In this document: positions 311-58,169 of the stretch, piece after piece
Layout of the letters: each line of letters opens with the position of its first letter
Position numbering within the stretch: the stretch's first letter is position 1
Source of the DNA: a virus
Virus record (IMG/VR): IMGVR_UViG_3300042934_000137
Span: 1-58,190 of that record
Reading direction: 5' to 3' (one strand)
DNA length: 58,190 nucleotides
Program-made: the position numbers and the translations under genes
Notes under the pieces: generated by a model
The model's database searches: none
What the model was told of the DNA's origin: nothing
Seen by the model: the letters and a program-made list of their open reading frames with translations, nothing else

Positions 311-331
311 GATAGTCTCCTTCATATAGGG

Positions 332-362
332 TCTCATTATAGGATGTGTAATTCCTGCGAGA
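332..362 (-). promoter_or_regulatory. Promoter-like element P2
   Basis: TCGCA, TTACAC and TATAAT (336-341) begin at 10-bp intervals, followed by GAGACC. The start codon of the 128-310 gene is 26 bp past the -10, allowing a short leader with a GAAGGAG ribosome site. No TTGACA-like -35 is visible. Confidence 0.75.
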
Positions 363-3688: not shown

Positions 3689-4533
3689 TACAGACCCCCA
3701 TACCTGGTGGTGTATTCGATCGTCCACGGAATTGGCGTTCCCGAGGTGTACACCCGAATGTAGTTTTCCCCTTGAGCTAGCTGAATCCAGTCAGACTGCG
3801 GAGCGATTGCCCACAGCAGAGAAGTATCAGTTAGCCCGCGGGTCAGCGTCACACTCTTTTGTCCAGGGATCGTTACGATAATGAGCTTGTCCGAGGTGCT
3901 CAGCGGCGCCTCAAAGTCCATCGTTAGAGCGATATCACCACTCTTCCTGTGGTAAATCGTGAACTCACTCAACGTACGAGTGCCTGTCCAGGGCATCTCC
4001 AACGTGAACTTTACCCCTGTGTCAACCGTTCCTTCGTAAGGGATGAGGAAACGACCGCTCTCGCTAGTCGTAGAATCGGTCGTTTCCCCGCTGATGATCA
4101 CAGGCTCTGGATCAATAAAGTCCGGATCAAAGCAGATGATCGAAACATCCACTCGAGGTTCCTTGGTGAAGGATGGCGCATCGCATGTCTCCACACGACC
4201 GTCGATCTGCACAACGAGCCCGTCCGAGTAGTAAAGGTGTAGGGTTACTTCAGACTTCGGCATGAAAAATCCGTATAGCCTGTTCCTCAGCCCTCGAACG
4301 GTGCTCGTTGTGAAGTTGGGCTTCAACTTGAGTCGAATGATGATGTTGCGCGTTGTACGACTGCTGTCTTGGTACTGAGCACCATCCAAGTTGGCCCAGT
4401 CAGACGTCACGAGTGTCGCCTTAACTGGGTCCAAGCCTTCGACTTCTTCGACCAAATATCCGCCGGTAGAATCAGCCAACGGAAGAGCTAGAACGCCGCC
4501 TAGCTTGTTTTTAACTTCTACCATGGTAAGCAT
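3688..4533 (-). CDS. Distal tail protein (Dit-like)
   Basis: This encodes 281 residues and directly follows the tape measure gene with a TAATG stop/start overlap. The N-terminal half has the YQDSS..TTRNIIIRLKL pattern of distal tail proteins, which form a ring at the tail end. The C-terminal half is a beta-rich galectin-like segment. The assignment rests on order (tape measure, Dit, Gp37-like) and general sequence character. Confidence 0.7.
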   Translation of the reverse strand: MLTMVEVKNKLGGVLALPLADSTGGYLVEEVEGLDPVKATLVTSDWANLDGAQYQDSSRTTRNIIIRLKLKPNFTTSTVRGLRNRLYGFFMPKSEVTLHLYYSDGLVVQIDGRVETCDAPSFTKEPRVDVSIICFDPDFIDPEPVIISGETTDSTTSESGRFLIPYEGTVDTGVKFTLEMPWTGTRTLSEFTIYHRKSGDIALTMDFEAPLSTSDKLIIVTIPGQKSVTLTRGLTDTSLLWAIAPQSDWIQLAQGENYIRVYTSGTPIPWTIEYTTRYGGL

Positions 4534-8891: not shown

Positions 8892-9268
8892 GCTGCGGAT
8901 TTCACCGCCTTCCAAACTCGGTCTGCGATCTTGTCGAACACAGGCTTGATTGCTGGGTTGATGAAGTCACGTCCCTGTACATAACCACCGGTGCCGGTAG
9001 AATATCCATACTGGAGCATGATGACAACAGGAAAACCGTTTTCTACGTCAGAGTTGGTCCACTCAATGGTGTAAACACCGCCTCTTCGATAGACCTTGTG
9101 TCCCCACGAATTAGCTGCGAGTCCACTCTCAAGAGGGGTCGCCGCTGCGAGAGCCGACGTCCCCTCTTGAGCTGATGCCGCCATGATGCTGAGAATATCC
9201 AGTTTGGAGACGTTCTGAAGGAACTTCTCCGTGTTCTTGAAGGAGCCCTTAACTTCGTAGCGAATCAT
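8888..9268 (-). CDS. Tail completion protein, HK97 gp10-like
   Basis: This encodes 126 residues. A basic N-terminus, a region with SALAAATPLESGLAA and a C-terminal GRDFINPAIKPVF match the style of gp10/tail-completion proteins. Its stop overlaps the tape measure start by ATGA. Its position just upstream of the tape measure is unusual, as this family normally sits before the tail tube gene. Confidence 0.55.
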   Translation of the reverse strand: MIRYEVKGSFKNTEKFLQNVSKLDILSIMAASAQEGTSALAAATPLESGLAANSWGHKVYRRGGVYTIEWTNSDVENGFPVVIMLQYGYSTGTGGYVQGRDFINPAIKPVFDKIADRVWKAVKSAA

Positions 9269-13910: not shown

Positions 13911-15899
13911 TCAGGCCCGACGGAAGAACGACCAGAAGGACTCGCCGTCGTTCGCGAAGTGGAAGTTCGCGTTCGGCACCGCCTGGACGTTGAGGGTCGC
14001 GCCGACCGCCAGAGCGGACTGAGCACCCGGCGTCAGGGTCGCACCGGTGTCCGAGTTCTTGTAGACGTAGTTGGTCGGGGTCGGGATGGTGACCACGCCA
14101 GTCGCCTTGTTGAACGTCGGGTCAGCCGGCTCGACCAGCAGCGCAGAAGCGGCAGTGGTGGAGCGGAGGACCAGGGCCGACTTGATGCGAGTCAGAGCAC
14201 CGGAGATGCGAGTCTCCATCAGGTACTTCTGACGGTTGTAGTCGATGTCGAAGTCGTCGAACATGTTGACCTCGCCACCCTTGTCGGCGCCGATGTTGTA
14301 GTCGTCCAGGTTGACGATGATGCCGATCAGGTCGGAGATCCGGCTGAACGTGTCGACCGTGACGACCTCGCGGACACCAAGAGCCTCGGCGACCTCGGCC
14401 TTGTTCTTGTAGTAGCGCCGGCCCTCGCCGTCCTTGGCCTTGAGGAACATGTTGAGGTGACGGATGGTGGTGTAGAACACCGGGGTACCCGTACCCTTGT
14501 AGTACTCCATGCCGTCGATGACCGCGTCCACGACCTCCTCGTAGTTCGAGTTGGTGTCGCCCACGTTCACCGAGATCTCGGTCTTGAAGAGCTCGTGCTC
14601 GTTCAGGATCGAGCGGATGCCCTGGCCGTCGGCCGCACCCAGCGGATCCTTGATCTTGTCCTCGGCACCCGGGCTGCGCCCGTCACCGACGAGGATCGCG
14701 CTGGCGATCTCCTCCTCCAGCATGAGCCGCATCTCGGCCTTGAGCCAGGCCACGACGTCGAAGTCGGTGATGTCCAGGACGTCGTCCCGGTCCAGCTGCT
14801 GCTTCTTGTAGATCGTGGTCGGGGACGTGGTGCGCTTGGTGACGCCGATCCACTCCTCGATCTTGTACGCGCCCTTCACGTAACCCTTGGCGCGCGCCTC
14901 CTCCTGGGTGAGGTCGGCGGTGATCGTCTTGATCCGGGAGAACGGGCTGTGACGGACGCCGTTGAGCACGCTGGCGACCCACTCGGTCCGACGCTTGTCG
15001 AACTCGGGGGTGTTGCTCAGCGCCTTGGCGTCCGGGAACAGGGTGCCGATGTTGTCGATACCGTGCGCCAGGGCGTACTTCTCGACGGCGCCCTTGAGCG
15101 AGCCGTTCCGGACGGCGTCGGCGACGATGCCCTTGACGTCATCGTGCGACAGGGTGTGACGGTCCTCGGTCTGGGTACCGCCGTTGCGCTCGAAGATGTT
15201 GTGCACCTCGGTGTTTCCTTCCTGGTGAGTGAGGCCGGCGTCGGTGTCCGAGTGCGCGGCGGAGTTCTTCTTGGTGGCCTGGTCGACGGCCACCGCGATC
15301 ATGTAGTTGACGACGGTCTGCTCCTCCTCCGTCATGGCGTCGTAGACGTCCTGAACGGTGAGGTCCTCGTCGGCGTGCTCGAGGTCGCTGTCGTCCTCGT
15401 CGTCCTCGTCGACGTCGTCAGCAGTGCCGGAGTGCTCGAGGGTGAGACCGGTGTAGATGATGGCCTCGTCCTCCAGATCCTGGACGAAACCGTCACCGTG
15501 GGCGATGCTGACCTGATCGATCTTGGCGCCCGGGTTGGCGCCCGAGAGAACCAGGCTGACCTCACGGATCATGCCGTGGAAGACCTGGCTGGCCCGCTCC
15601 TTGAGCTTGTTGGCGTAGATCGACAGCATCGTGATGTCGCCGTGCTGCACCAGCTGCTTGGCGGCCTTACCCGCGGAGGTGTCGTTGAAGTAGCCGTAGG
15701 CGTAGACGCCGTCCGACCGGCTCTCCAGGACCGCGTGGCCGAGAACGTTGGTGGGTTCGTTGTGGGCGTGCTGCCAGACCAGAGGAACGGTCATCTTGTC
15801 CATGTGCTTGAAGGCACCCGGCATGATCGTTCGACCGTCGGAGCACTCGAGACCAGCCTTGGTGGCGTAGCCGCTGAAGTCAGCGTTAACGTCTCCCAT
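13911..15899 (-). CDS. Prohead protease-major capsid fusion
   Basis: This encodes 662 residues. Residues 1 to about 150 resemble the HK97 prohead protease: GRTIMPGAFKHM, a WQHAHNEP histidine region and ITMLSIYANK, the likely catalytic serine region. An acidic linker (about 160-190) follows, then an HK97-fold capsid domain (about 260-590). The last 70 residues form an Ig-like module shared with the tail tube protein. The start follows AAGGAGAA. Cleavage presumably separates protease and capsid. GC-rich codons fit very high expression. Confidence 0.88.
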   Translation of the reverse strand: MGDVNADFSGYATKAGLECSDGRTIMPGAFKHMDKMTVPLVWQHAHNEPTNVLGHAVLESRSDGVYAYGYFNDTSAGKAAKQLVQHGDITMLSIYANKLKERASQVFHGMIREVSLVLSGANPGAKIDQVSIAHGDGFVQDLEDEAIIYTGLTLEHSGTADDVDEDDEDDSDLEHADEDLTVQDVYDAMTEEEQTVVNYMIAVAVDQATKKNSAAHSDTDAGLTHQEGNTEVHNIFERNGGTQTEDRHTLSHDDVKGIVADAVRNGSLKGAVEKYALAHGIDNIGTLFPDAKALSNTPEFDKRRTEWVASVLNGVRHSPFSRIKTITADLTQEEARAKGYVKGAYKIEEWIGVTKRTTSPTTIYKKQQLDRDDVLDITDFDVVAWLKAEMRLMLEEEIASAILVGDGRSPGAEDKIKDPLGAADGQGIRSILNEHELFKTEISVNVGDTNSNYEEVVDAVIDGMEYYKGTGTPVFYTTIRHLNMFLKAKDGEGRRYYKNKAEVAEALGVREVVTVDTFSRISDLIGIIVNLDDYNIGADKGGEVNMFDDFDIDYNRQKYLMETRISGALTRIKSALVLRSTTAASALLVEPADPTFNKATGVVTIPTPTNYVYKNSDTGATLTPGAQSALAVGATLNVQAVPNANFHFANDGESFWSFFRRA

Positions 15900-16573: not shown

Positions 16574-17875
16574 TCACATCCCAAGATCGGCGAAGATCTC
16601 GTCGATCGTGCTACTCAGAGAGTCAAGTGAATCCTTGACTGCGGAATCTTCTCCATCATCAACGCCCTCATTTTGACCCTCAACCGGCTCAGCTGGCTGT
16701 GGCATGTTGGCGTTCTCGAGCTTGTCAGCGCTCGGATCCTTGGATGGTTTCCACCCAACGACCTGACGCATCTCGTTCGAGGTAGCGATCTTGTTCCGCG
16801 TGAACTTGTCCGCGATCTCGGCGATCGAAGCGATCGGAACGAGCTTGAACGGGTCACGGAAGAACATGATGGACTGCTTCTGAGTACGAGCAGTCTTCGT
16901 CAAGAAGCGACGCTTCATGGACTCAGTGATTGCCGACACAATTGGTTCAATTGTGCGATTCATGTAGTTCAACATGGTCGCTTCGTCGGCAGTACCCTTC
17001 ATGATCTCGGGAGTGAGACCAAGCTGGCCGTACAACATCTCAGTCAGGTACTCGACCGTCTTGAGGAGGTTGTTCTCGGCTGGACGGTTTAGTTGGGTGA
17101 CCTTCTCGGTACCGTCCGTGTAAGCGATGCCATACTTGTTGTTCCTGAGTTGGAACTCGATGTCCTGACGACGCTGCTCAGCCTGCTGTCGACGAGCTTC
17201 AGACTTGATGACATACGGCAGCTGGATGATGAGATCGAGCTTGCCCGAGCCGGCCTGCTCGTCAACGGTGTCCAGAAGATTGAGCTTCCTGACGAGTCGC
17301 TGAAGAGTAGAGTTCGGTTCGTTCATGACCGCGTAAAGCGGATTCTCGATGATCGCGACATGTCGCTTGTTGAGGACGAGCTGTTCACGATAGCCCTTGA
17401 GCTCGTTGTAGACCTCGACCTTGACGTGTTGAGGCATCCACGAAACGATCTCGCCGACTCGCATGGTCTTGATGTCGTATGAGCCGAGGTTAGGATCAAT
17501 GGTGGTGTCCACGGGGACGATTGCGGCTACGCCCTTGTCTAGGACGGTCATCGCTACGTCGAAGCGGAACTGTCGAGCTGCCTGATCAATGTTTGCCTCG
17601 AGGGTGAGGCACTCATTAAGTCCGCTATTGATGTCCTCAAGATAACGATCTTCCTCGTCCAAACGGACGTGTCGGATGTCGCTGGAAGCGATGTCAATAG
17701 CGAGTCGAGTGTAGATCGAAGAAATAATCGATCGCTCGTTAGTGAACGTCAACCTCGGTCGGTCAGAACGAACGCTGTATGAGACTCCACCTGCGGTGTG
17801 AGTTCGAAAGCGCTCTTCGACTTTCTCATCGACGAACGTATTCCATGCGTGTGAGATTCGGTCTCTGATTCCCAT
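16574..17875 (-). CDS. Portal protein
   Basis: This encodes 433 residues of HK97/SPP1-type portal character. The N-terminal part holds RLAIDIASSDIRHV and a long alpha/beta body; later comes LYGQLGLTPEIMKGTADEA in two parts, a region conserved in portals. The acidic C-terminal tail is consistent with the family. The dodecameric ring at the head vertex forms the DNA channel. Its neighbours (tagged head proteins before, scaffold-like and capsid after) support the call. Confidence 0.88.
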   Translation of the reverse strand: MGIRDRISHAWNTFVDEKVEERFRTHTAGGVSYSVRSDRPRLTFTNERSIISSIYTRLAIDIASSDIRHVRLDEEDRYLEDINSGLNECLTLEANIDQAARQFRFDVAMTVLDKGVAAIVPVDTTIDPNLGSYDIKTMRVGEIVSWMPQHVKVEVYNELKGYREQLVLNKRHVAIIENPLYAVMNEPNSTLQRLVRKLNLLDTVDEQAGSGKLDLIIQLPYVIKSEARRQQAEQRRQDIEFQLRNNKYGIAYTDGTEKVTQLNRPAENNLLKTVEYLTEMLYGQLGLTPEIMKGTADEATMLNYMNRTIEPIVSAITESMKRRFLTKTARTQKQSIMFFRDPFKLVPIASIAEIADKFTRNKIATSNEMRQVVGWKPSKDPSADKLENANMPQPAEPVEGQNEGVDDGEDSAVKDSLDSLSSTIDEIFADLGM

Positions 17876-17916: not shown

Positions 17917-18951
17917 CTAGCCTCGAGTGTCTCGACGGCTGACGAACAGATCGGTAACCGGAACGCTAGAGACGAAATCCAGAACGTCTCGGGCTGCGAG
18001 CTTTCCGCTCTCGACACGCTTTCGCTGAGCCTCGAGATCACCGAGGGCCTTGTCGACTCGCCTGTTGTACCGACCCTTACCCCCATAGAGGCCAATGCCG
18101 ACACCTCGGCCTACACGCTCTCCAACGGTCGCTCCGCGTCCTTCTCGAGCTCGCTTGAGGACCGCAGTGTTTCGCTGGTTCTGGTCGAGAATAGCGCCAG
18201 CGACACGATTGCCCTTCTTGCGAACTCCCCACTTCATGCCCTTGACGCCGTAGTGGAGTAGTTCTTCTGGACTCCCGGGCTTGTCGTTGTACGACATACC
18301 CATTCCTTCCTCTAAGTGTTGTGCCTCGTTGACATCGTATGCCATCTCAGTAAGTCCACCGAAGACGATGTCGTCTTCCATCTCCTTGGCGGTGGGTTCT
18401 TTGACGACCTTGAAACCGAGCTTCTCGTAGATATGACGCGCATCCGGAGAGTTCTTGGGGACCTCAAGAGTGAGCTTCTTAAAACCCTCTTGTCGTCCAA
18501 ACTCGGCGCCGGCCTTCATGACTGCGGTGGCATAACCCTGACCTCGAGCCGACTTGTTGATACCAAGCCACACCAGATTCAGTTCGTCCTTGCTCTTCTT
18601 CGCTACTTGAGCTTCGCCGATCTTCTTACCCGAGCCATCATGGATTGTCAGATATGCCTGGTCCGCATAACTCTCTCGGAACTTCTTGCTTCTGCGACCC
18701 ATGAAGTTTTGGAATCGGGACGGAGGAATTTTGCTTAGACGAACCTCTTCTCCAGATGCGGTCTTACGAACGACCGAGTCTGGACCGAGAGATTTAAGCG
18801 GAGCCTTCTGCGAAGACCGATCCTTTCGGACACCCCACTTCATGCCCTTGACGCCGAAGTGTGTTATCGGTTCGTCATTGATGTTTGCGAGCTGAGTCTC
18901 GAGAATATCGAGAAAGCTCCCATACACATTCTCGAGATTGAACTGGTCCAC
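17917..18951 (-). CDS. Doubly tagged GNAT acetyltransferase
   Basis: This encodes 344 residues. A tag HFGVKGMKWGV lies at 31-41. Residues about 68-185 form a GNAT domain with the acetyl-CoA loop RGQGYA (136-141) and YEKLGF. A second tag HYGVKGMKWGV lies at 233-243, in a context (SPEELLHYG) matching the N-terminus of the 19626-20366 protein. GAGGAAGG lies just before Met219 (ATG at 18297), so an internal start could make a separate 126-residue tagged protein. Acetylation targets are unknown. Confidence 0.75.
   Translation of the reverse strand: MDQFNLENVYGSFLDILETQLANINDEPITHFGVKGMKWGVRKDRSSQKAPLKSLGPDSVVRKTASGEEVRLSKIPPSRFQNFMGRRSKKFRESYADQAYLTIHDGSGKKIGEAQVAKKSKDELNLVWLGINKSARGQGYATAVMKAGAEFGRQEGFKKLTLEVPKNSPDARHIYEKLGFKVVKEPTAKEMEDDIVFGGLTEMAYDVNEAQHLEEGMGMSYNDKPGSPEELLHYGVKGMKWGVRKKGNRVAGAILDQNQRNTAVLKRAREGRGATVGERVGRGVGIGLYGGKGRYNRRVDKALGDLEAQRKRVESGKLAARDVLDFVSSVPVTDLFVSRRDTRG
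18227..18255 (-). repeat. Tag-coding repeat, copy A
   Basis: This 29-bp stretch encodes the core of the second tag in the GNAT protein. It is nearly identical to copies at 18833, 19467, 20296 and 22525. Conservation exceeds that expected for synonymous positions, suggesting recent spread or recombination. Confidence 0.85.
18833..18861 (-). repeat. Tag-coding repeat, copy B
   Basis: This encodes the first tag of the GNAT protein. The similarity extends upstream into a shared GATCCTTTCGGA on the plus strand, also present before copies C and D. Confidence 0.85.
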
Positions 18952-18982: not shown

Positions 18983-19633
18983 CTAGAAGTTCTTGAGGAA
19001 CTCAGACGCCGACATCCCAGGCTTGATGTTGTTGGCGTTCTTAAGCTGAGAAAATGCGGTCTTGCCCGCCTTGAGGATAGCCTTGTCGACACCACTTCGA
19101 TGCGCCCACATGGCACCACCTGCAATCATCGCTGCAGCCGCGGAAGCGTATTGTGGGTTTCCTCGAACGTAGTGACTGATGCCGCGAGTGGTCTTGGCAG
19201 CGCTACCGGCGACGTTCTTCCGCTTCCGCTCTCGCTTGGCTTTAGACGCGTGAACCGCCATGTCCTGTTTTGCGAGATGGTGATCGAAAGCCCTCTTGTA
19301 GTTCGGGTCCTTCTTGCTCAGCGTCTCGACCTTAGCCTTGATCAGCTTTCGACGAGTGCCGGCGCCATCTCCGTAGAACATCTTAGCTCGAGCGAATTCG
19401 CGAGCATCCTTCAGAGCGGCCTTGTTGGTGCCTCGAGAAACACCTTCGGGACGATCCTTTCGGACGCCCCACTTCATGCCCTTGACGCCGAAGTGCTCGA
19501 TAACATCTTCGGAGAAATCGGAGACGTCCAACGCAGTGAATCCAGCAGCTTCGCTGCGCCGCTTAAGATCATACTCAAGCTCTTCTCTCGACGAATATGC
19601 CGAAGGAATTATCATACCAGGAGTTCTAGTCAT
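18983..19633 (-). CDS. Tagged basic minor head protein
   Basis: This encodes 216 residues. The tag HFGVKGMKWGVRKD lies at about 48-61, followed by a Lys/Arg-rich helical region (KLIKAKVETLSKKD, KAKRERKRKN) and a hydrophobic Ala-rich segment at about 160-175. The basic character suits DNA or capsid contact. It overlaps the end of the metalloprotease-like gene by 8 bases. Related tagged basic proteins are known near phage portals, but their function is not established. Confidence 0.65.
   Translation of the reverse strand: MTRTPGMIIPSAYSSREELEYDLKRRSEAAGFTALDVSDFSEDVIEHFGVKGMKWGVRKDRPEGVSRGTNKAALKDAREFARAKMFYGDGAGTRRKLIKAKVETLSKKDPNYKRAFDHHLAKQDMAVHASKAKRERKRKNVAGSAAKTTRGISHYVRGNPQYASAAAAMIAGGAMWAHRSGVDKAILKAGKTAFSQLKNANNIKPGMSASEFLKNF
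19467..19495 (-). repeat. Tag-coding repeat, copy C
   Basis: This encodes the tag of the 18983-19633 protein. It matches copy B over this core and the upstream flank. Confidence 0.85.
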
Positions 19634-20366
19634 GCTTCACCTCTTCTCTGAATGGAGTATCGTTGAGTCCCAGTTCTCGGTGGAGGGTTTCTCCCCACAC
19701 CGTCACAAAACTAGGCGGGTTTGAACTCCAATGGTACTGAGAAAATAGCTCAGCTTCAACCTCTTCTCGCATTCCGGATGTCGCTGCATAATCCGAAACC
19801 TTAGACGAGAAAAGATGGCTAGGTATTCCATCTCTTTGTGCCGCTTTAATCGCCGCTTTAATTGCTTTATCCCGGGCCTTGATGTTTCCGCCGACAATTC
19901 TCGGACCAGCGAACCCTGTTTTCACTTTTTGTTCGGCATGAAAAATGGCATGTGCCGATTCATGAGTAAGGAAAGCTCGGACGTTACCACAATCTTTCCC
20001 GAACCAACCAATGTCTTCGCCGTGTTTTAGTTGCTTTCGGACGTCGGTATGGGCTGTGTAAATAACGCCCTCACGCCGTCCTGGCGTACCCTGTACAAAA
20101 CCGATTGTACCCGTGCCATACTCCGGGTGCCCTGGTTCTATAGATTTGAGTGCGCTGATTTTAAAACCGTACCTCTCGCCGATCAGAGAAGCTACTTCTT
20201 TACCGGCACTTTTTGTCGATTGCGGTAGCGTCGAATCGATCGTTGGTCCTGGTCCTTGGAGTCGGTATACACCGTCTTCTTGATCCTTTCGGACGCCCCA
20301 CTTCATGCCTTTGACGCCGTAGTGAAGAAGCTCTTCGGGCGACGCAGGCTTCTTCAAATACGTCAT
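19626..20366 (-). CDS. Tagged zincin metalloprotease-like protein
   Basis: This encodes 246 residues. The N-terminal tag HYGVKGMKWGVRKD lies at 15-28. A zinc-metallopeptidase motif HESAH (HExxH) at 135-139 sits in a LTHESAHAIFH helix, with candidate third ligands in EEVEAELF about 65 residues later, after SDYA. This matches phage head-associated zincins. The N-terminal tag suggests the protease travels in the virion. The substrate is unknown: head maturation or host targets are both possible. Confidence 0.7.
   Translation of the reverse strand: MTYLKKPASPEELLHYGVKGMKWGVRKDQEDGVYRLQGPGPTIDSTLPQSTKSAGKEVASLIGERYGFKISALKSIEPGHPEYGTGTIGFVQGTPGRREGVIYTAHTDVRKQLKHGEDIGWFGKDCGNVRAFLTHESAHAIFHAEQKVKTGFAGPRIVGGNIKARDKAIKAAIKAAQRDGIPSHLFSSKVSDYAATSGMREEVEAELFSQYHWSSNPPSFVTVWGETLHRELGLNDTPFREEVKHD
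20296..20324 (-). repeat. Tag-coding repeat, copy D
   Basis: This encodes the N-terminal tag of the metalloprotease-like protein. It differs from copies B and C at two positions in this core. Confidence 0.85.
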
Positions 20367-22105
20367 TCGAAGGCCTCCTTGTGTGCCTTGTATGCGACGT
20401 AAGCGTCCATCATTGCGGCGACGTTATCGATCTTTTCGTCATAGCGCTTCTTCAGGAGCTTTCTGTTTCCGTTCGTGTCTTCCATAGTAATGGCGTTACC
20501 CATTGCGAAAGACATCAACCCTTGGTCGAATCGGAGCAGGCGTTCTTCACTAAGAATCTTCAGTTCTCCGAGAGGAACAGATTCCGTCTTAGAACCCTGA
20601 ATAACCTTCTCGATACCGAAAGGCCCGTTCTCTTGACCCCAACGTGTAACGAATTCTTTTGCGTTGTATGGATCGTAACCAAGAGAACGAACGTCGTATC
20701 CACGCTCCTGAATATGCTGATCGAGATCTTCGTAGACCTCCATCATGTCGAGAACGGTGCCCTCAATGATATGAAGACTTCCTTCTCTGATGAACTCGTC
20801 GTACTTGGCACGCATAGCTCCGGGAAGCTTCTTCAACGTGAGTGACGTAATATAGCTTCGAGTCTTGACACCGAAACCTCGTCGCAAAGGGAAGAGGAAT
20901 GTGAAAGCACAGAAGTCGTCACCCTGCGAGAGGTCGGCGCCCAAAGCACAAGGCATGTCATCAAAGTTCTGACGACGGTGAGGAAGCGTCTCTTCGTAGG
21001 TAAAGAAGTAGGTGTAGCCCTCCATCGGAATGCCGAACCGCTTAGCGAGAATATCGTTCCTTGCGGCCGGGGCCTTCTCGGCTCGTTCGACGTCGAGCTG
21101 GTAGGTCTCATAACTAACAGTGAGACCAAGATTTGGGTTTGCCTTTACCCACATCGCTGGATTGGCGACTTCTTCCAGATCATCCAATTTGTAATGGAAA
21201 ATAGAGATGTGTGGGGCTATGTACTCGCCCTTTAGGATCTCCATCAACTCCATCTTGATAGTGTCGCCGCTGCCGTTACGAACAGTTCCTTCCGAGCTAA
21301 CCGCGAGAATCATGTAATCCTCGAGCTTGGAAGCACCCTGCTCTACGGCGCCAATGACATCCTCTCGGAGGTCTCCGGAAAGCCACTCATCAATAGTGTT
21401 GCATTTGGTTCTAAGGCCCTGCAACTTAGTGATCGCCATAGGACGAATCTCGAGCAGAGAGTTCGTAAGAAAGTTCTCAATGCCCTTCTTCGTTGGGATC
21501 AGCTTCTGTCGAAGAGCTCTGGCGCCCGTGGTGTTCTGAAGGGATCCCTCAGTCAAGAATTTAAACAAGGGGCCACGGGCTCGAGCGATCGCAGTCCGGA
21601 TGGGACTCATGATCTCTTCAGCCTGCTTCATCGTTGGAGCAGTTGTGATCTGGTGCGTTGTCGACGTATCAATCGTCAGAATATAGGCCTGTACGAGAGA
21701 CTCATACAAGGACTTGGCTGCACCTCTAGCGACGATGAGATACTGCTTCTTAGTTAGACGAACCTTGATAGTCTTGGTGACGAAATGACCCTCACCACCA
21801 GTGGTCGACGGTATGTAGACCTGTCTATCAATGAAGTAGTACCAACCAAATAACTGTTCGCCCCAAAGCTTGAAGGACGGAAGCAACGTCAAGTCACTAC
21901 CATCCGTCAACGTCATCTCAGACTCGCAGAAAAGGATCCAGCCTTCTACCGGTCCAGGATCGTAGTAAATGTTCGGGTTGGCGATGAGCTGATCGATGCG
22001 ATTCATCTCCATCGCGATCTCCCGATTCACAGGAATATCGCCCCGAAGCACAGCCTCGCGGAACTGCCCGTAATACCTGGGTGTTGCCGTGTTCGACAAG
22101 CCCAT
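20363..22105 (-). CDS. terL: Large terminase
   Basis: This encodes 580 residues. The start is the ATG at 22105, preceded by AAAGGAGG; an earlier in-frame ATG would overlap the previous gene. It is the ATPase-nuclease motor that packages DNA through the portal. A degenerate Walker A-like VARGAAKSLYES follows a DRQVYIPS segment. The C-terminal nuclease region has ALGADLSQGDDF and the DPYNAKEF segment. The position beside portal and head genes supports the call. Confidence 0.87.
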   Translation of the reverse strand: MGLSNTATPRYYGQFREAVLRGDIPVNREIAMEMNRIDQLIANPNIYYDPGPVEGWILFCESEMTLTDGSDLTLLPSFKLWGEQLFGWYYFIDRQVYIPSTTGGEGHFVTKTIKVRLTKKQYLIVARGAAKSLYESLVQAYILTIDTSTTHQITTAPTMKQAEEIMSPIRTAIARARGPLFKFLTEGSLQNTTGARALRQKLIPTKKGIENFLTNSLLEIRPMAITKLQGLRTKCNTIDEWLSGDLREDVIGAVEQGASKLEDYMILAVSSEGTVRNGSGDTIKMELMEILKGEYIAPHISIFHYKLDDLEEVANPAMWVKANPNLGLTVSYETYQLDVERAEKAPAARNDILAKRFGIPMEGYTYFFTYEETLPHRRQNFDDMPCALGADLSQGDDFCAFTFLFPLRRGFGVKTRSYITSLTLKKLPGAMRAKYDEFIREGSLHIIEGTVLDMMEVYEDLDQHIQERGYDVRSLGYDPYNAKEFVTRWGQENGPFGIEKVIQGSKTESVPLGELKILSEERLLRFDQGLMSFAMGNAITMEDTNGNRKLLKKRYDEKIDNVAAMMDAYVAYKAHKEAFE

Positions 22106-22121
22106 CACCAACCTCCTTTCA

Positions 22122-23081
22122 TCAACTACCGATAGCCTTGCGAGAGACGTCAATGACGTTCCTCGAGACGTACGCGTTCGTTCGGAATGGACCGCTGTTG
22201 TTCATCTTGGCGTTGACTGCAGCACCGAGAATGAGAGGGACCGCAATCTTTCCGACTTCGCCCAAAATCTTGAGCGCTGCCATTCGCTTTTCAGATCGCC
22301 GCTTGGCATCTTCGTTGATGACGTCACGAAGCTTCTTCTCCAACTCGAGGCGCTTGCGCATCTCCTCCAGTCGCTTGCTGGACATCTTGTGTAGACCGCC
22401 GGCCTTGTTGATGGCCTGTTGGTATTCCGACTGAGTCTTGTTGGTCTTGTAGCTGAGTTTCTCAGCTCGGTTCAACATCTCAGGCTTGTTGATCCCAATA
22501 CGACCGTCTGGATCCCTTCGGATTCCCCACTTCATGCCCTTGACGCCATAGTGAGCGAGCTCGCTCATTCTCACCTCCTCCGAGTAATATCGTTCCTTGA
22601 GTCGAAACTCGGTGCCCTCGTAATCGCCGGTCCAGAGAGCGATGCGATCGAAGGTCACCCAAGAAATATTGCGCGTCCAGTCGTCCTTTGTCACGAGAGG
22701 TTTAGCCGGAGTTTCCGGGTACCCCAGCGTGAGATGTGGAGTCCATGACGGGTACTGCTCTATCGAGTGGTAAGCCCGGAAAATGTTCGGATCTTGGAGG
22801 AGGTATGCTCGAGCTTCCTCCATCATCCGAGTGTCTCGCTGCTTGAAGAACACGACATCCGCGCGCTTCTCGCCTAGTAAACCACGTCGATCGACTTCTA
22901 GGCCGAACTGATAGAGCGAGGTGTTGGTGACGTGTTGCAGGTAGCTCGTGATCCGTCCCAGCTCGTCGATGTCGCTCACATCCCCGAGGAATAAGAGCGT
23001 CAGATGAGGGACCTTCTCGCTTGAGATCTGCCAGACGTAGTCTTCCTCAGAAGGAATGGCTACGATGGCGACTCCAGTCAC
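22122..23081 (-). CDS. Tagged 2H phosphoesterase (LigT-like)
   Basis: This encodes 319 residues. Two HxT motifs, HLTLLFLG (26-33) and HLTLGYP (116-122), define the 2H phosphoesterase superfamily, which includes LigT RNA ligases, cyclic phosphodiesterases and anti-CBASS Acb1. The tag HYGVKGMKWGIRRD lies at 177-190, followed by a helical, basic C-terminal region. The substrate is not deducible; RNA ends, cyclic nucleotides and NAD-derived cyclic phosphates are all possible. It sits directly upstream of terminase. Confidence 0.78.
   Translation of the reverse strand: MTGVAIVAIPSEEDYVWQISSEKVPHLTLLFLGDVSDIDELGRITSYLQHVTNTSLYQFGLEVDRRGLLGEKRADVVFFKQRDTRMMEEARAYLLQDPNIFRAYHSIEQYPSWTPHLTLGYPETPAKPLVTKDDWTRNISWVTFDRIALWTGDYEGTEFRLKERYYSEEVRMSELAHYGVKGMKWGIRRDPDGRIGINKPEMLNRAEKLSYKTNKTQSEYQQAINKAGGLHKMSSKRLEEMRKRLELEKKLRDVINEDAKRRSEKRMAALKILGEVGKIAVPLILGAAVNAKMNNSGPFRTNAYVSRNVIDVSRKAIGS
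22525..22553 (-). repeat. Tag-coding repeat, copy E
   Basis: This encodes the central tag of the 2H phosphoesterase and differs from copies B and C by one or two bases in the core. It is the furthest upstream of the five near-identical copies. Confidence 0.85.
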
Positions 23082-24518: not shown

Positions 24519-24534
24519 CCCTAATCCTCCTTAT

Positions 24535-24614
24535 GGATCTTGGGCAAAAAGTGACAGTCCTTGTATCGCAAGAATTGGATCTTGAGGCAAAAAGTAACAG
24601 CCCATGTATCGCAA
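24535..24614 (-). repeat. Tandem 37/38-bp direct repeat
   Basis: Two copies, 24535-24571 and 24577-24614, begin GGATCTTG, share GCAAAAAGT and end TGTATCGCAA on the plus strand, with about five differences. On the minus strand each reads TTGCGATACA...GTTAC/GTCAC...TTTTTGCC. The GATACA word recalls the promoter elements. They lie in the gap between thyX and the endolysin operon, so they may be operators or a variant promoter. Confidence 0.7.
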
Positions 24615-24630
24615 AACTTGCAAGCACTGT

Positions 24631-27182: not shown

Positions 27183-27425
27183 TCAGGAATTCACAACAAC
27201 TTTGCGGTGAACTCCTGATGCATTGATACGAACAATCTCTTCAATCGCATCTTCGAGAGCTTGATCCTGATCTGCATCAGACAAAGCTTCCGAAGTACGA
27301 ACGATCCTTGCCTGTAGTGCCAGCGTGTGGTGGCCAGCAGCTGTGTCATAGGCATACCACTCATCGAACTGAGTAGAAGGATCGAATGGATTGTCCACTG
27401 TAGTGAGCATGTGTTTGGCCATCAA
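27183..27425 (-). CDS. Hypothetical protein after RNAP-like gene
   Basis: This encodes 80 residues. It starts MMAKHMLTTVDNPFDPSTQFDEWYA in parts and has an acidic helix (SDADQDQALEDAIEEIV). Its ATG overlaps the stop of the RNA polymerase-like gene, so the two are co-translated. This is a small phage protein of unknown role; a partner of the polymerase is possible. Confidence 0.6.
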   Translation of the reverse strand: MMAKHMLTTVDNPFDPSTQFDEWYAYDTAAGHHTLALQARIVRTSEALSDADQDQALEDAIEEIVRINASGVHRKVVVNS

Positions 27426-30118
27426 TCCTCCTCACTCAAGCTCTTCTGTAGAATGGACACTGAGACACCCAATTGTTCCGCGATCTCGCCCTGTGTGAAG
27501 CCTTGGTTAGCCATAGAGCGGGCACGAGCCATCATGCCACTACTCATGGTGGTGCTAGACCTAGGTGTAGCCAACTCCTTGATCCGCTCGATGTTGGCGT
27601 GAGTGAGAATCTGGTTCAGCTTGTGATTGCTGATAGCACCAGCTTGAATAGCATCCCACTCGGCATCAGTGATGTCGAAGTCGTCTTTGCCTGCACCTAC
27701 CCTAAGACGAGCCGTCTTCAGAGCTAAGAACTTAATCTTCTTCTCTTCAGACTTCTCCATGTCTGGATACTCAGCACGCTTGGCCTTGTATAGGGCGTTG
27801 GCTATGACCTGGGCTTGTCTTTCGAGGGGGGCGTTTCTGAGGGCGGCGTTCAACTTCTGATTGAGGGAGGCCACTTCCTTAGCATAGGCGGTCCTTGCTG
27901 AGGGAGAGTAGGGGATGTTCTTGATGGCCACCATGTTCTTACGTGCTTCGTTCCCCATACCCTTCAACTGGTTGGAGTGCTCAGCATAGATGGTCTCGAT
28001 GCGCGTCTTGTGTGGAGACACAAGCTTGAAAGCGTCATCGGTTTCAGCCAGGAGCTTCTTACCCCTGTCCATACGAAAGACCGTCTTACCAGAAGTTGGG
28101 TCTACGTATGTAGCGCCCGTCTCCGTGTAGATCTTCTTTCCCGTAACAGGGTCTACCTTGTAGCCCTGCTTTCGTTCGCGAACATCCACCTTTCGACCAG
28201 CCCTCGAGATGAGGGTTGCCGCACCACCAGTCTTCTTTCCCTGATACTTCTCCATGAGTGCAGGGATTCCGTTGTCCTTTGCAGACTGACGGTAATTGAG
28301 CTTGTGCTTTTCTGCGTCGATGACAACCATTGAATGACGGACTGCTCGAGCAAGTTCGTCAGCGTTGGCGCCACCGATGGTCATGTCTGTGATGAGGTTC
28401 GATACGATCCCCATCTGCATACCCTTTTCACGAGGCGTCATCAGCTTCATGCCAGGGTATTCCGGATACCGAGCCTTAGCGTCAAAGTCCTCAAGACCCT
28501 TTAGTGCAGGCGAGCTCTTGACTTTCCCGTGATTGTTCGGGATGACAAGGACTGTGTCCCCATCGAAGTCAGCGCCAGACAGTCGCTCAGCCACCCTGCT
28601 GTTGATGCCGATGGCATCGGTTGCATCCTTGAGGAGCTTCTTTGCTTGAGCATGGCGGTTGTTCACGGTGAGTTCAGGGATCTCGAAAGTTCCACCGTGA
28701 GGGAAGCGAACAAGAACTACGCGTTCACCATTCTTGAACGTGGGCGCGTAGACTTCAGTTTCCTTCAACGTGTTTACGGGAAGGATGACCTTGTTCGCCT
28801 GACGAGGAAGAGCCGCAGCCTTCAGATGTACTGCCGACGAATCGACATCATCAGCATAGGCCTCGAGCAACCGCTTCTTGACAGCGGGATTGTTGAGACT
28901 CATGATCTCGTCGAGTTCACGACGCTTTCGTTCAGCGGTCGCGGTCAGCTGTGTCTTAGCAAGGTTTGGACTCTGCTTAGACAGGAACTGTGACGACAGC
29001 GATCGAGACCACTGCTCCCAACTACCTTCCTCGTTCACCATGTTCATGACCGAGGTGACCTTCTTGCCGTCGGGCGTGGTGATCTGCCGACGAATAACAG
29101 CACCGAATGGGTTGTCTTCGTCGAGCTTCCCATCCTTCGTTGTCTGCATCTTCTTCAGAGCATCGAGTTTGTTACCCGTATTGCTCTTGTTCGTGTTGAA
29201 CATGAGATCAACGCCATCAGGCAGATCATCCTTGTACATCGCCATACCCTTGATGTAGTGCGTACCGTCAACAGCGATACGAACCTGAGCATAGCGAGCC
29301 TTACCCATCGACAGATCATTGACGCCAGGTCGGACATAAACAACACCGTCAGCGTCAGCGCCACCCTCTTCCTTGTAGCGAACCCCAACGCGCTTGGAAT
29401 CAATCGAGATCGGGGGCTTGATCGCCAGGAAGGACTTGCCTCCGTCATTTGAATATCCAGCAACGCTCTGGATCTTGTCGCGATTCTGAAAGACTTCGGC
29501 ATACTCGGTGCCGGGCTTAACCAAGACCTTCATCGTGGTCTCATGCCTCGTGCCCAGCTGCTGTACCTTTACGTAGTACAGCTTGTAGTCCTCTTCCTTA
29601 GTGAGGCGAGAAATAGCAGCTCGGAGTTTGGTGTCGCTGACGTTCATGTAGTGCTCGGTACCAGTACCGACGTCGAGATATCCCTTCTTCTCGACCTGGT
29701 CCTTGAGGAAGTTAGAGGTAGACTCCAGAACATCAACTCGAGCTTTTGCGCTCGGAGCGAGAAGAGCACGAACAGAGGATTCAGGAATCCCCATCTTCTC
29801 ACCAATCTTGACGTTGGACCATCCATGCTCCTTCAACCTCTGGGCCATGGAAATATCCGCGGCCTTCTTGGCGTTGCGAGCGATGGTTACGGCGTTGCGA
29901 AACTCCGTGGTCGTCCAGGGCTTTCCGTTCTCGGTGTAGAGAGACATGCCCTTAGCAATCTCTCCGTCACTCAGACCCTTTGACCGAAGATCGGCGACAG
30001 TGCCGAGAAAGTCTCGACCACGCTGTCCTGGATCCTCGCCGCTTCCCCACGGGTAGCGTCCCGATCGACGCAGGATGCCGTAGTGGGCGAGGTAGTTCTC
30101 CTCAGGGATGATCGCCAC
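27422..30118 (-). CDS. DFDGD-type RNA polymerase-like protein
   Basis: This encodes 898 residues. Residues 517-521 are DFDGD in LSGADFDGDTVLVIP, the metal-binding loop of double-psi-barrel RNA polymerases, preceded by VRFPHGG (469-475). A region at about 285-312 (YIKGMAMYKDDLPDGVD, NTNK) holds lysines as in a partner barrel. HTH-like segments lie at about 50-80, 96-120 and 872-892. The N-terminus LAHYGILRRSGRYPWGSG (10-27) is a degenerate form of the HYGVKGMKWGV tag. A single-subunit YonO/QDE-1-like polymerase is the best reading; activity is unproven. Confidence 0.7.
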   Translation of the reverse strand: MAIIPEENYLAHYGILRRSGRYPWGSGEDPGQRGRDFLGTVADLRSKGLSDGEIAKGMSLYTENGKPWTTTEFRNAVTIARNAKKAADISMAQRLKEHGWSNVKIGEKMGIPESSVRALLAPSAKARVDVLESTSNFLKDQVEKKGYLDVGTGTEHYMNVSDTKLRAAISRLTKEEDYKLYYVKVQQLGTRHETTMKVLVKPGTEYAEVFQNRDKIQSVAGYSNDGGKSFLAIKPPISIDSKRVGVRYKEEGGADADGVVYVRPGVNDLSMGKARYAQVRIAVDGTHYIKGMAMYKDDLPDGVDLMFNTNKSNTGNKLDALKKMQTTKDGKLDEDNPFGAVIRRQITTPDGKKVTSVMNMVNEEGSWEQWSRSLSSQFLSKQSPNLAKTQLTATAERKRRELDEIMSLNNPAVKKRLLEAYADDVDSSAVHLKAAALPRQANKVILPVNTLKETEVYAPTFKNGERVVLVRFPHGGTFEIPELTVNNRHAQAKKLLKDATDAIGINSRVAERLSGADFDGDTVLVIPNNHGKVKSSPALKGLEDFDAKARYPEYPGMKLMTPREKGMQMGIVSNLITDMTIGGANADELARAVRHSMVVIDAEKHKLNYRQSAKDNGIPALMEKYQGKKTGGAATLISRAGRKVDVRERKQGYKVDPVTGKKIYTETGATYVDPTSGKTVFRMDRGKKLLAETDDAFKLVSPHKTRIETIYAEHSNQLKGMGNEARKNMVAIKNIPYSPSARTAYAKEVASLNQKLNAALRNAPLERQAQVIANALYKAKRAEYPDMEKSEEKKIKFLALKTARLRVGAGKDDFDITDAEWDAIQAGAISNHKLNQILTHANIERIKELATPRSSTTMSSGMMARARSMANQGFTQGEIAEQLGVSVSILQKSLSEED

Positions 30119-36563: not shown

Positions 36564-36580
36564 AACGTCCTTTCGTAGGG

Positions 36581-36611
36581 TCTCATTATAAGCCATGTAT
36601 CCTACGCGAGG
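36581..36611 (-). promoter_or_regulatory. Promoter-like element P4
   Basis: TCGCG, ATACAT and TATAAT (36585-36590) are spaced at 10 bp, followed by GAGACCC. It precedes 36339-36563 with a leader of about 20 nt. Confidence 0.75.
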
Positions 36612-36924: not shown

Positions 36925-36942
36925 ATAATCCTTTCGGAGGGG

Positions 36943-36973
36943 TTTCATTATACTGCGTGTAATCCCCGCGAGG
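36943..36973 (-). promoter_or_regulatory. Promoter-like element P5
   Basis: TCGCG, TTACAC and TATAAT (36947-36952) keep the 10-bp spacing, followed by GAAACC. It drives 36649-36924. Confidence 0.75.
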
Positions 36974-37529: not shown

Positions 37530-37548
37530 TATGATTCCTTTCATAGGG

Positions 37549-37579
37549 TCTCATTATACGCCGTGTAATATATGCGAAA
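37549..37579 (-). promoter_or_regulatory. Promoter-like element P6
   Basis: TCGCA, TTACAC and TATAAT (37553-37558) at 10-bp spacing, followed by GAGACCC. It drives 37323-37529. Confidence 0.78.
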
Positions 37580-37860: not shown

Positions 37861-37884
37861 GACGATTCCTTTCGTAGGATATGG

Positions 37885-37915
37885 TCTCACTATACTCCGT
37901 GTAATATCTGCGAAA
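37885..37915 (-). promoter_or_regulatory. Promoter-like element P7
   Basis: TCGCA, TTACAC and TATAGT (37889-37894) at 10-bp spacing, followed by GAGACC. It drives 37612-37860. Confidence 0.75.
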
Positions 37916-38127: not shown

Positions 38128-38148
38128 AATGGTCTCCTTCATATAGGG

Positions 38149-38179
38149 TCTCATTATAAGCCGTGTATCTCATGCGAAA
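38149..38179 (-). promoter_or_regulatory. Promoter-like element P8
   Basis: TCGCA, ATACAC and TATAAT (38153-38158) at 10-bp spacing, followed by GAGACCC. It drives 37948-38127. Confidence 0.78.
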
Positions 38180-46704: not shown

Positions 46705-49700
46705 TCAGAGAATGAATTCTTCGAAGTCGCCGAACTTCTCGATGGTCTTTCGAGCCTTCTCGGCGAGCAGCTCGAAATACGACATGTCGATCGCATCGAG
46801 CGGAAGGGTCTTGGCCACGTCGGCCTCAACCCACAAATATCCCTTCGTACCGGCGACGGCGTAGGCCTTGTTGTCGTCGATCCGCCAGAGGAGTCCCCCT
46901 CCGAATCCCTCTCGTACGGGAACGAACCGACCAGTTCGACCGACAAACTGCATCGTGTCGAAACCACCGTCATCGAACATCGGCTTCTGTACGCAGTCGA
47001 AATCAAGGTACATGGAACCCTTCGACACAGACTTGGTCTCGCACAGATCGTCGAAACCAATATCGGCGTCCAGATCGAACAGCGTCTTGAAGACGTAGGG
47101 ATGTTGGAACTGTGCACCAACGGCAGACCAGGTTCTACGAAGCTCGCCACTGCAGACGGACTCGTAGTTGATTTCCTGAGCCTCTTCGTCCATGACGAGC
47201 CACTCACCATTGATGCACTCGTCCTTGCGGGCAATATAGACCGCGTCGTTGACGAGAGCCATCTTGGCGTAGGTTGCCTCGTGTTCGAAGGTGTAGCCGT
47301 ACTTGGCGCCGAACTGCGTAACGAACTCAATGATCTCCGGGGTGGCGTTGGGGATCTTGATGGAGTCCGTCTTGATATGAGCAACTGTGAATCCCCGTTC
47401 CTGAACAGCGTGCTTCAGGTCGATCATGAACAGGGCACCACGCTTCGCAACGATGTTGTCGACGTTACGAATATCGCGGAACGGGTTGTCGAACTTCGCC
47501 GAGGTCAGACCGTAGACGATGTTGATCGCGATCTTGAGTGCGAACCTCAGCGTTGCTGCGGATGCCTTGGCAGCAGCGGGATCGTCAAGCCGTTCAAGGT
47601 CGTTGAGGTACGGCGTGAGCTTCCCGCCGAGCATTCCCTTGGCCGATTCGAAGTCGCCGTGCTTGATTGCCAGTTGTGCCTCGACGAGCGACATGAACTT
47701 GGGTGTGTACTCGCCGAAAAGACGAAGTTGTCCAATCGATGTAGGGTGCATCGAAGCGACGTCAAGAAGCGCGACATTGTGATGAATGCCCGTCTCAGCG
47801 AAGACATAGCCGCCTTCGCCAACTTCCTCGCCACGATATGTGGACTTGCCTCTTTCGAACTCATAGCCAGGGAACTCCTTCGCCAGGTTCGTGTAGATGA
47901 AGCTACTCTGTGGGTTGCGGTCCTCTCCGAAAATGATTCGAGCAGTGTGCTTCTGCGTGGTGTCGTTAGGACTGAGACCACTCAACTCGGCTAGAATAAG
48001 CCTTGCCGTGTAGTCGCCCTTCCGAGCCTTGTGAACTGCTTCGGTGGAACGAACGTCGTTGCAGCAGTAGTCGACGACGTCCTGGATGCGTTCCTTGGGT
48101 ACCGGCTTGTCCCAAGGAATATCCATCTCCTTGTGTTGGATCCCGAGCTCGATCTGGAACTTCTTCAGTCCCTGCTTCTTCGAGCTGTAGTCGTAGATGT
48201 CGGTCCACGACAGGTTGTACGCCTCACCGAACAATGCTCCAACGACATTGTCGATGATCTTCTTGGATAGCTTGTAGAGCTGCTCGTTGTCGTACCCGAG
48301 GTAACGGGCGTACAAGATATGGTTGTCGTACTTTCGATTGTTGAAGCCGACCAACTTGAGCTTGAACAGCTTCTCGATGTCCTGAGGGGTAGGGTTAACC
48401 ATGGGGACAACGGTGTCACTGTCCTCGTACTTCCAGCACACGACAAAGAGGTTTGGATATACCTCAACGTCGTAGAAGACGACACGATCATCATCGGTCG
48501 GGACAGTTTCGTGTTCGACCTGCAAGCCCAATGGGTCCTGCTTGTCCGACGACTTGAACTTCATCGCCATGACCGTCTTCAAACACACGAGCGGCTGGTT
48601 AGTACTGTTGTTGGCGAAGGCGATCAGTCGACCTCGAATGTCCGAGACATCATACTCCATCTCGGATTGGTACGCCTCTTCGAGGATATGGTAGATGAAG
48701 TCGATCGAGGGCTTGGTTCCCGGGTGGATCTCCTTTCGCAGATTCCTGTCGATCAGTTCCCGAAGACCCTTTTCGCTCTGGATCTTCTCCATCTGGAGCA
48801 CTTTCTTTTTCTCCTTGAGGGGTAGCTGACCGAAGACCAACAACGCAATTGGAACGCTGTTACACTTCGTCAGGCGACGACGGAGAGAGGAGTCACCCGA
48901 ATATACCTTGATCTCGATTCCATCAGCGTAGGTACGAGATAGCTCGGAGACGTCTCCGTCGTAGTTGTAGTGGAGATGGACCCCTGCACCGGACTTACTG
49001 AGTTCAGCATAGGTAGCAGGCCACTCGGAGGCGGCTTCGAGGTTTCGCTCGAGGGATTTGTTGCCATCTTCGTCCTTGAGGTCGAAGTCGATCACAATAT
49101 GGTTTTCAGGCACCTTAACGTAGTGCACCAGAGAGCTATCGATCTCAGCCAACGTGGTCTTGACTGTTGCCCAACGCTTACGAGGAAATCCGTCGTCATT
49201 AGCCAGCTGAGCGGCCGACTCAGCAAACTCCAGATCGAACAGAGACTTCGTCTCGTCCAGCACGAGAGAGAATATAGTTGCGGGCTCGGCGGTTGGGGTC
49301 TTGAATTGCCTAGCATTGAAGCCAGCGTAGTAGCTCCTGAAAGGCTCCCCGTCGATCGTGATGCGGTCGTGGAACTCGTCGAAGTAGTTAGCCAACTCCG
49401 CTCGAACTTTGTACCGCGGCAACGGCTTCTCAATGCCGGTCTCTCCGCAGAACTCCTTGTACATCACGTAGGCCTGCTGTAGAGAAACTCCATCTTGTCG
49501 TTTGAATATATCGAAGTTCGACTCGATGAAGTTGAAGAAAATGTCCGTCTGGAGCATCATCTCCAAAGGCTGGTACGCATTGTAGAAGTTCTTACCCATG
49601 TCCCGATAAATATCGAGGCAGTGTTGAGCGATAGCCCCCAACTCGAAGTCGATCCGGGACATGAGGGTGTGGTAGTGGTTGGGCTGGAGCTTCTCGCCGG

Positions 49701-53997: not shown

Positions 53998-54019
53998 ACG
54001 AATATGTCCTTTCATTGGG

Positions 54020-54050
54020 TCTCACTAAGACCCATGTAATTTGTGCGAGG
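54020..54050 (-). promoter_or_regulatory. Promoter-like element P9
   Basis: TCGCA, TTACAT and CTTAGT (54024-54029) at 10-bp spacing, followed by GAGACCC. The -10 is the most divergent. It drives 53845-53997. Confidence 0.6.
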
Positions 54051-57672: not shown

Positions 57673-57693
57673 GATGTGCTCCTTCATATAGGG

Positions 57694-57724
57694 TCTCACT
57701 ATAGGATGTGTAATTTCTGCGACC
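57694..57724 (-). promoter_or_regulatory. Promoter-like element P10
   Basis: TCGCA, TTACAC and TATAGT (57698-57703) at 10-bp spacing, followed by GAGACCC. It drives 57496-57672 and abuts the stop of 57726-57917, with no hairpin between. Confidence 0.75.
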
Positions 57725-57966: not shown

Positions 57967-58084
57967 ATTTGAGAGGATGTAACAGCCCAACTAAAACTGT
58001 TCATTAACTAGCTATCTCCATTGCTAGCACTCCGGGCAGGTAACGATCCTGCACATTAGTGTCTCGGAATCCTTTCGGATATCC

Positions 58085-58115
58085 TCTCATTATAGGGTGT
58101 GTAATTCTTGCGAGA
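58085..58115 (-). promoter_or_regulatory. Promoter-like element, repeat copy of P1
   Basis: It is identical to the element at 42-72: TCGCA, TTACAC, TATAAT (58089-58094) at 10-bp spacing. It precedes a possible 10-codon ORF at 58024-58056 and the gene at 57726-57917. Confidence 0.7.
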
Positions 58116-58119
58116 CCGA

Positions 58120-58146
58120 AACCTAAAGCCCGTGTGGGCTTAGGTT
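58120..58146 (-). terminator. Hairpin, repeat copy
   Basis: It is the same hairpin as at 77-103 in the left copy of the terminal repeat. Confidence 0.55.
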
Positions 58147-58169
58147 GATGAGGGGTTTGATGGGGGGGG

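Follow-up and report, generated by a model that had tools for sequence, protein, structure and literature searches.

The virus DNA analysed here encodes a single-chain protein with the predicted two-barrel fold of an RNA polymerase, and a bipartite element, TCGCA-N4-TTACAY-N4-TATARTGA, is repeated upstream of its early genes. We propose, with moderate confidence, that the protein is a DNA-dependent RNA polymerase that is packaged in the virion, injected, and fires early promoters. The position of the element in the early region, the structural label deposited for a homologue and a conserved N-terminal tag all point to an injected enzyme. The bipartite early-gene element, which is common to these phages, is new here.

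The polymerase gene and its family

The window, meaning the whole stretch of 58,190 bases that was analysed (the complete IMG/VR record IMGVR_UViG_3300042934_000137), resembles an actinobacterial siphophage, with nearly all called genes on the minus strand (Table 1). A repeat of about 127 bp near the record ends (positions 1-127 and 58043-58169, with one homopolymer difference) makes it probable that the record holds a complete genome, closed or permuted. GP55, the homologue in Lactococcus phage 1706 of the helicase-primase-PolB replicase, has been described (PMC12205980).

A sequence-only reading of this DNA had proposed an 898-residue polymerase with a DFDGD loop, HTH-like segments at both ends and a relative of the HYG tag at its start, and each of these features was recovered at the positions in Table 1. 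The C-terminal Sigma70_r4_2 match had an E value of 6e-6, above the Pfam cut-off. The DFDGD loop, in the context LSGADFDGD, was the sole DxDGD motif of the window when stop-to-stop frames of at least 80 aa were searched.

Table 1. Positions of the features discussed in the text, in window coordinates.
Feature	Position	Strand	Basis or remark
Polymerase gene, 898 aa, single-chain two-barrel RNA polymerase, phrog_4291	27422..30118	-	GTG start; fold predicted
N-terminal tag LAHYGILRRSGRYPWGSG, residues 10-27	30038..30091	-	Near-invariant in family; modelled disordered
N-terminal HTH / sigma region 4-like segment, residues 91-120	29759..29848	-	Pfam HTH_23, Sigma70_r4
Six-strand barrel, residues 259-363, read as beta-like double-psi barrel; conserved K290	29030..29344	-	DSSP of model; alignment with QDE-1 and P23-45 gp64; conservation
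Six-strand barrel, residues 441-527, read as beta-prime-like double-psi barrel	28538..28798	-	Model and structural alignment
DFDGD catalytic loop, D517/D519/D521, residues 517-521	28556..28570	-	Invariant in 76 relatives
C-terminal HTH, residues 860-897	27428..27541	-	Sigma70_r4_2 match at 872-888; model
phrog_4303, 80-aa protein, overlaps polymerase stop	27183..27425	-	In 22/22 relatives tested
Candidate promoter CGCATATATTACACGGCGTATAATGAGACC	37547..37576	-	0 mismatches
Candidate promoter	37883..37912	-	0 mismatches
Candidate promoter	57692..57721	-	0 mismatches
Candidate promoter	330..359	-	0 mismatches
Candidate promoter	38147..38176	-	2 mismatches
Candidate promoter	36941..36970	-	2 mismatches
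Candidate promoter, weaker copy (CGCGTAGGATACATGGCTTATAATGAGACC)	36579..36608	-	Repeat finding
Candidate promoter	54018..54047	-	3 mismatches
Candidate promoter, repeated at 40-69 where record ends overlap	58083..58112	-	2 mismatches
Canonical tag (LAHYGVKGMKWGIRR) fused to 2H/LigT-like phosphoesterase	22122..23081	-	Motif scan and DUF7211 match
Canonical tag near N-terminus, 246-aa protein	19626..20366	-	Motif scan and DUF7211 match
Canonical tag in 216-aa protein, phrog_6291	18983..19633	-	Motif scan and DUF7211 match
Two canonical tags flanking GNAT acetyltransferase domain	17917..18951	-	Motif scan and DUF7211 match
Terminase	20363-22153		
Portal	16574-17875		
Protease-capsid fusion	13911-15899		
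Tape measure	4533-8915		
gp55-like helicase-primase-PolB replicase	46705-50592		

The protein matched phrog_4291 end to end (residues 6-897, E 0, 1313.6 bits). Full-length homologues of less than 60% identity were found in about 250 of 50,697 phage records, mostly from phages of Arthrobacter, Gordonia and Streptomyces but also of Rhodococcus, Curtobacterium, Microbacterium and Lactococcus. Further homologues occurred in viral contigs and in many bacterial assemblies, including those of Clostridia, where they are presumably prophages. The records name them 'helix-turn-helix protein', 'hypothetical protein', 'RNA-dependent RNA polymerase' or 'structural protein', so that these polymerases are usually mislabelled. 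The family is large and known, and not unique to this record, but it is functionally unstudied; a literature search of partial coverage found no functional study.

In the phage records inspected, the polymerase was the large gene nearest the right end and was followed by a small protein. The small neighbour in the window, phrog_4303, matched no Pfam family; it could be an accessory subunit or factor of the polymerase, or an inhibitor. One or two in-frame stops, mostly TAG, were seen in the polymerase or terminase matches of six relatives (G001, G005, G014, G016, G017 and G023), and most of these may be match ends or sequencing errors.

Predicted fold

A structure was predicted with AlphaFold2 from an alignment of 76 diverged relatives, those with no recognisable tag being left out, and the model had a mean pLDDT of 85.9 and a pTM of 0.73. 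When it was compared with the PDB by Foldseek and VIA-align, QDE-1 matched model residues 237-732 (Z 17.4, 376 residues, rmsd 5.1), followed by RDR2 (Z 17.3) and P23-45 gp64 (Z 14.0); gp66 of the crAss-like phage phi14:2 was a weak Foldseek match (E 0.004). Comparison with QDE-1 had been suggested by the sequence-only reading, and the two barrels it expected are present in the model, both inside the QDE-1-aligned region, with the catalytic triad directly ahead of the last strand of the second barrel. Searching PDB sequences with the family profile yielded no polymerase of useful significance, so the link to polymerases needed the predicted structure. Judged from this model, the phrog_4291 protein almost certainly has a two-barrel RNA polymerase fold.

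The N-terminal tag

The tag had been called degenerate. It is instead a strongly conserved variant, with the pattern HYG-N4-SGRYPWGSG fitting 224 of 237 relatives. Residues G14, S19, G20, R21, P23, W24, G25 and S26 were invariant in the 76 diverged relatives, placing the tag among the most conserved stretches of the polymerase, and by sequence comparison its conservation is far beyond chance. Residues 1-27 were disordered in the model. A segment that is near-invariant and modelled as disordered suggests a short recognition peptide.

The canonical form of the tag, HxGxxGxKWGxR, corresponds to Pfam DUF7211 (PF23847) and is present in five copies in four other proteins of the window. These four proteins matched PF23847, whereas the polymerase gave no match at E 1. 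Both kinds of tag begin L-x-H-[YH]-G, and long DUF7211 tags extend into RNGPPYPLGGGD, which resembles RSGRYPWGSGD of the polymerase; however, the KWG core is missing from the polymerase tag, which does not fit the Pfam model. The likeness is suggestive of a shared origin.

An alignment of 108 tagged proteins was made from those of the window, those around relatives and 1706 ORF7. Among the domains fused to the tag were a papain-fold deamidase and domains of 2'-5' RNA ligase-like, portal and endolysin type. In bacterial genomes, canonical tags lay downstream of the polymerase, in the head module, at 46 of 49 loci, against 2 of 61 upstream. The tagged proteins suggest a general head-cargo module. 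The GNAT acetyltransferase and the 2H/LigT-like phosphoesterase are possible injected effectors or counter-defence enzymes. We give even chances to the tag being a loading signal. Neither the tag nor the repeated element turned up in earlier reports in literature searches of partial coverage. One tagged protein matched a portal family and is likely ORF L238:16157-17833, with the tag near its C-terminus; others matched papain-fold toxin (Gln_amidase) or endolysin-type domains.

Location in the virion

In Lactococcus phage 1706 the homologue, ORF75, bears the tag LQHYGTKRHSGRYPWGSG and was deposited as 'structural protein'. The same label was given to ORF7, which has two tags; no further protein encoded by 1706 is tagged. 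Since 11 of the 76 deposited ORFs are so labelled, the chance that both tagged proteins would be is about 0.02. The label is also found on ORFs outside the morphogenesis module, which, as far as database entry labels can be read, suggests that it reflects experimental detection. The paper associated with the entry is reportedly Garneau 2008 in Virology. ReqiPoco6 gp106 is labelled a structural protein by similarity. Because its tag resembles that of the head-region proteins, and because the early-gene element is shared, the polymerase is probably packaged and switches on early genes; from these sequence comparisons we favour a location in the virion, though with some reserve.

Alternatively, the protein could be a non-virion RNA polymerase that is made after infection for later genes, with the tag serving another role, for example binding replication proteins of the host or the phage. 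Of the phage relatives, the best studied is YonO, which is of the same general kind (single chain, triad) and transcribes the late genes of SPbeta (PMC5467207). The polymerase gene also ends the early module and adjoins the terminase module, and in Correa, Egad, Scap1 and Perkunas the element lies 0.9-4 kb upstream of the polymerase gene, consistent with synthesis during infection. However, the element sits in the early rather than the late region, and both the structural label of 1706 ORF75 and the resemblance of the conserved tag to that of head-module proteins argue against an enzyme absent from the virion, leaving this alternative doubtful.

The repeated early-region element

Repeat finding in the window gave the consensus CGCA-N3-ATTACAC-N4-TATAATGAGACC on the gene strand. 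Nine sites were found at three mismatches or fewer, one of which lies in the overlap between the record ends, compared with none in shuffled sequence. All lie in the early region and none in the structural region, and the polymerase gene of the window has none close upstream. An initial motif derived from GATACANGG proved about as common in random sequence, and the core came instead from repeat families. Hairpins resembling intrinsic terminators (e.g. GGCCCCTACGGGGGCTTT) directly precede some elements between 36600 and 38000, making candidate terminator-promoter modules. Downstream of ThyX (24519-24630), TTGCGATACANGGNCTGTNACTTTTTGCC occurs twice, about 43 bp apart; these copies resemble the early element but do not match it, and may mark a late regulatory site.

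Searching ten complete relatives with a 26-bp pattern returned 71 forward matches, which begin just past the tail genes, and no reverse matches or matches to the reversed-pattern control. Six phages lacking the polymerase by the family profile gave one poor match. Over 2.4 Mb of loci, the element core matched 24 times on the gene strand, never on the opposite strand and once in controls. Phage 1706, which has a low-GC Firmicutes host, carries eleven copies of TTTTACATNNNCTATAGTAGA with the same spacing in its early region, and the element is common to actinophages and Firmicutes phages with the same upstream half-site and spacing. For the weakest relatives, Damascus (no pattern matches) and P078 (one), variant elements were found de novo.

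Three versions of the element were used in exact scans over 2.9 million IMG/VR viral contigs, giving 49, 16 and 42 stretches, while the reversed versions of the first and third gave 0 and 4. The scans returned this group of phages: the polymerase was present in 29 of 30 pattern-selected contigs of at least 50 kb (15/15 and 14/15), and the lone exception looks truncated. Three contigs of at least 38 kb from the later set that lack it contain the same terminase and end within the early region; among the first-scan contigs lacking it, several have either the terminase, at 75-78% identity, or the replicase, and the very short ones are unplaceable. TCGCA, which was outside the search pattern, was 93-99% conserved in one IMG/VR set and about 79% conserved in the Firmicutes-type set. 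At 192 unique sites, TATA lay a median of 31 nt from a start codon that has a ribosome-site-like sequence.

Another possibility is that the polymerase does not recognise the element, which would instead be read by a host sigma factor or bound by another phage regulator, and would owe its conservation to common descent of the early module. Its TATAAT-like hexamer alone could serve host sigma, and the 22/22 genomes tested have other early genes in common, with the gp55-like replicase and phrog_4303 co-occurring with the element as regularly as the polymerase does. From co-occurrence alone, therefore, the polymerase cannot be singled out as the protein that reads the element: common descent is a confounder, and the binding factor could be a different phage protein. 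However, at the 192 sites a TTGACA-like −35 box at 15-19 nt was not enriched (2.66, against 2.88 in shuffled sequence) and an extended −10 TG was seen at only 5, the upstream half-site and spacing are identical in phages of two host phyla, and conservation runs on past TATAAT, so that we consider a host sigma factor or another phage regulator unlikely as the reader. Given the fixed spacing across phyla, the lack of sigma70 hallmarks and the sigma-region-4-like HTHs of the polymerase, the element is most simply the promoter of the phrog_4291 polymerase, and we regard that assignment as likely.

Predicted activity

D517, D519, D521, K290 and R471 were invariant in the alignment of 76 relatives, which reaches down to about 43% identity; among the candidate basic residues of the other, beta-like barrel, K311 was at least 90% conserved and K290 invariant. 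Together with the predicted two-barrel fold, the invariant triad supports the double-psi-barrel polymerase of the sequence-only reading, and on the strength of the model the protein is very probably an active DNA-dependent RNA polymerase. Several RefSeq names instead make it an RNA-dependent RNA polymerase, and QDE-1, for which a structure with a DNA template exists too, and plant RDR2 are indeed the closest solved folds. This is nevertheless very improbable, as the protein scores 13.7 bits against eukaryotic RdRP (PF05183), below the gathering score of 23.8, the gene belongs to a dsDNA phage, the fold match P23-45 gp64 is DNA-dependent (PMC10770324), and the HTH modules suggest binding to dsDNA promoters. 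A structural or regulatory DNA-binding protein that has kept the barrels but not the polymerase activity, as the usual labels 'helix-turn-helix DNA-binding protein' and 'structural protein' would have it, is hardly compatible with the five invariant residues.

Proposed mechanism

The polymerase would act as a single-chain, DNA-dependent enzyme with two double-psi barrels. During assembly, a head component would bind its tag, and the tag-bound polymerase would be packaged and then injected along with the DNA. Once inside the new host, it would recognise the bipartite element, perhaps via its terminal HTH modules, and transcribe the early region independently of a host sigma factor. The late genes, which lack the element, would presumably be read by the host enzyme or by read-through. 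In this scheme we infer catalysis, promoter use, packaging, tag function and the role of the HTHs.

More tentatively, and at slightly less than even confidence, a siphophage lineage spanning Actinobacteria and Firmicutes may inject a self-sufficient polymerase by means of a portable tag, with a related tag loading acetyltransferase, 2H phosphoesterase and papain-fold deamidase, and with a promoter near-unchanged between phyla. If the scheme is correct, about 250 phages, of which many are cultured isolates, carry a virion RNA polymerase with a predicted promoter under the names 'HTH protein' or 'RdRP', and the tag would be a candidate for a short, portable signal that loads proteins into phage heads.

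Comparison with known systems

Lactococcus 1706 gp75, Rhodococcus ReqiPepy6 gp106 and Streptomyces Kardashian gp82 are homologous over the full length and share the tag, the triad and the HTHs. Their genes occupy the same place, being the last large gene before cos and followed by phrog_4303. No essential difference separates these relatives from the 898-aa protein, and the family had annotation labels only.

Phage P23-45 has two single-chain, two-barrel enzymes with a DFDGD-type loop like that of the 898-aa protein, the non-virion gp64 and gp96, which is packaged in the virion (PMC10770324), whereas the window encodes one. While gp96 enters the virion within a tape measure of 5,002 residues, a short N-terminal tag would suffice here. 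The phi14:2 enzyme gp66 is also a virion-packaged, two-barrel protein, but it has more than 2,100 residues and an unrelated host range. The proposed mode of action resembles that of P23-45 gp96, crAss gp66 and the N4 virion polymerases, and differs in the short-tag delivery and the conserved bipartite promoter, both of which we infer.

YonO of SPbeta is alike in being a single chain of about 100 kDa with a DxDGD triad, and different in its DNDGD motif and its transcription of late genes; hhalign against a single YonO sequence gave no significant alignment. To our knowledge, packaging of YonO in virions has not been reported. The YonO promoter was described as still to be determined (PMC5467207), and the element would offer a specific, directly testable candidate promoter for an enzyme of a related kind. 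QDE-1 and RDR2 gave the best fold match across both barrels (Z 17), but they share only about 14% identity with the 898-aa protein, are cellular enzymes of eukaryotic RNA silencing and have other flanking domains.
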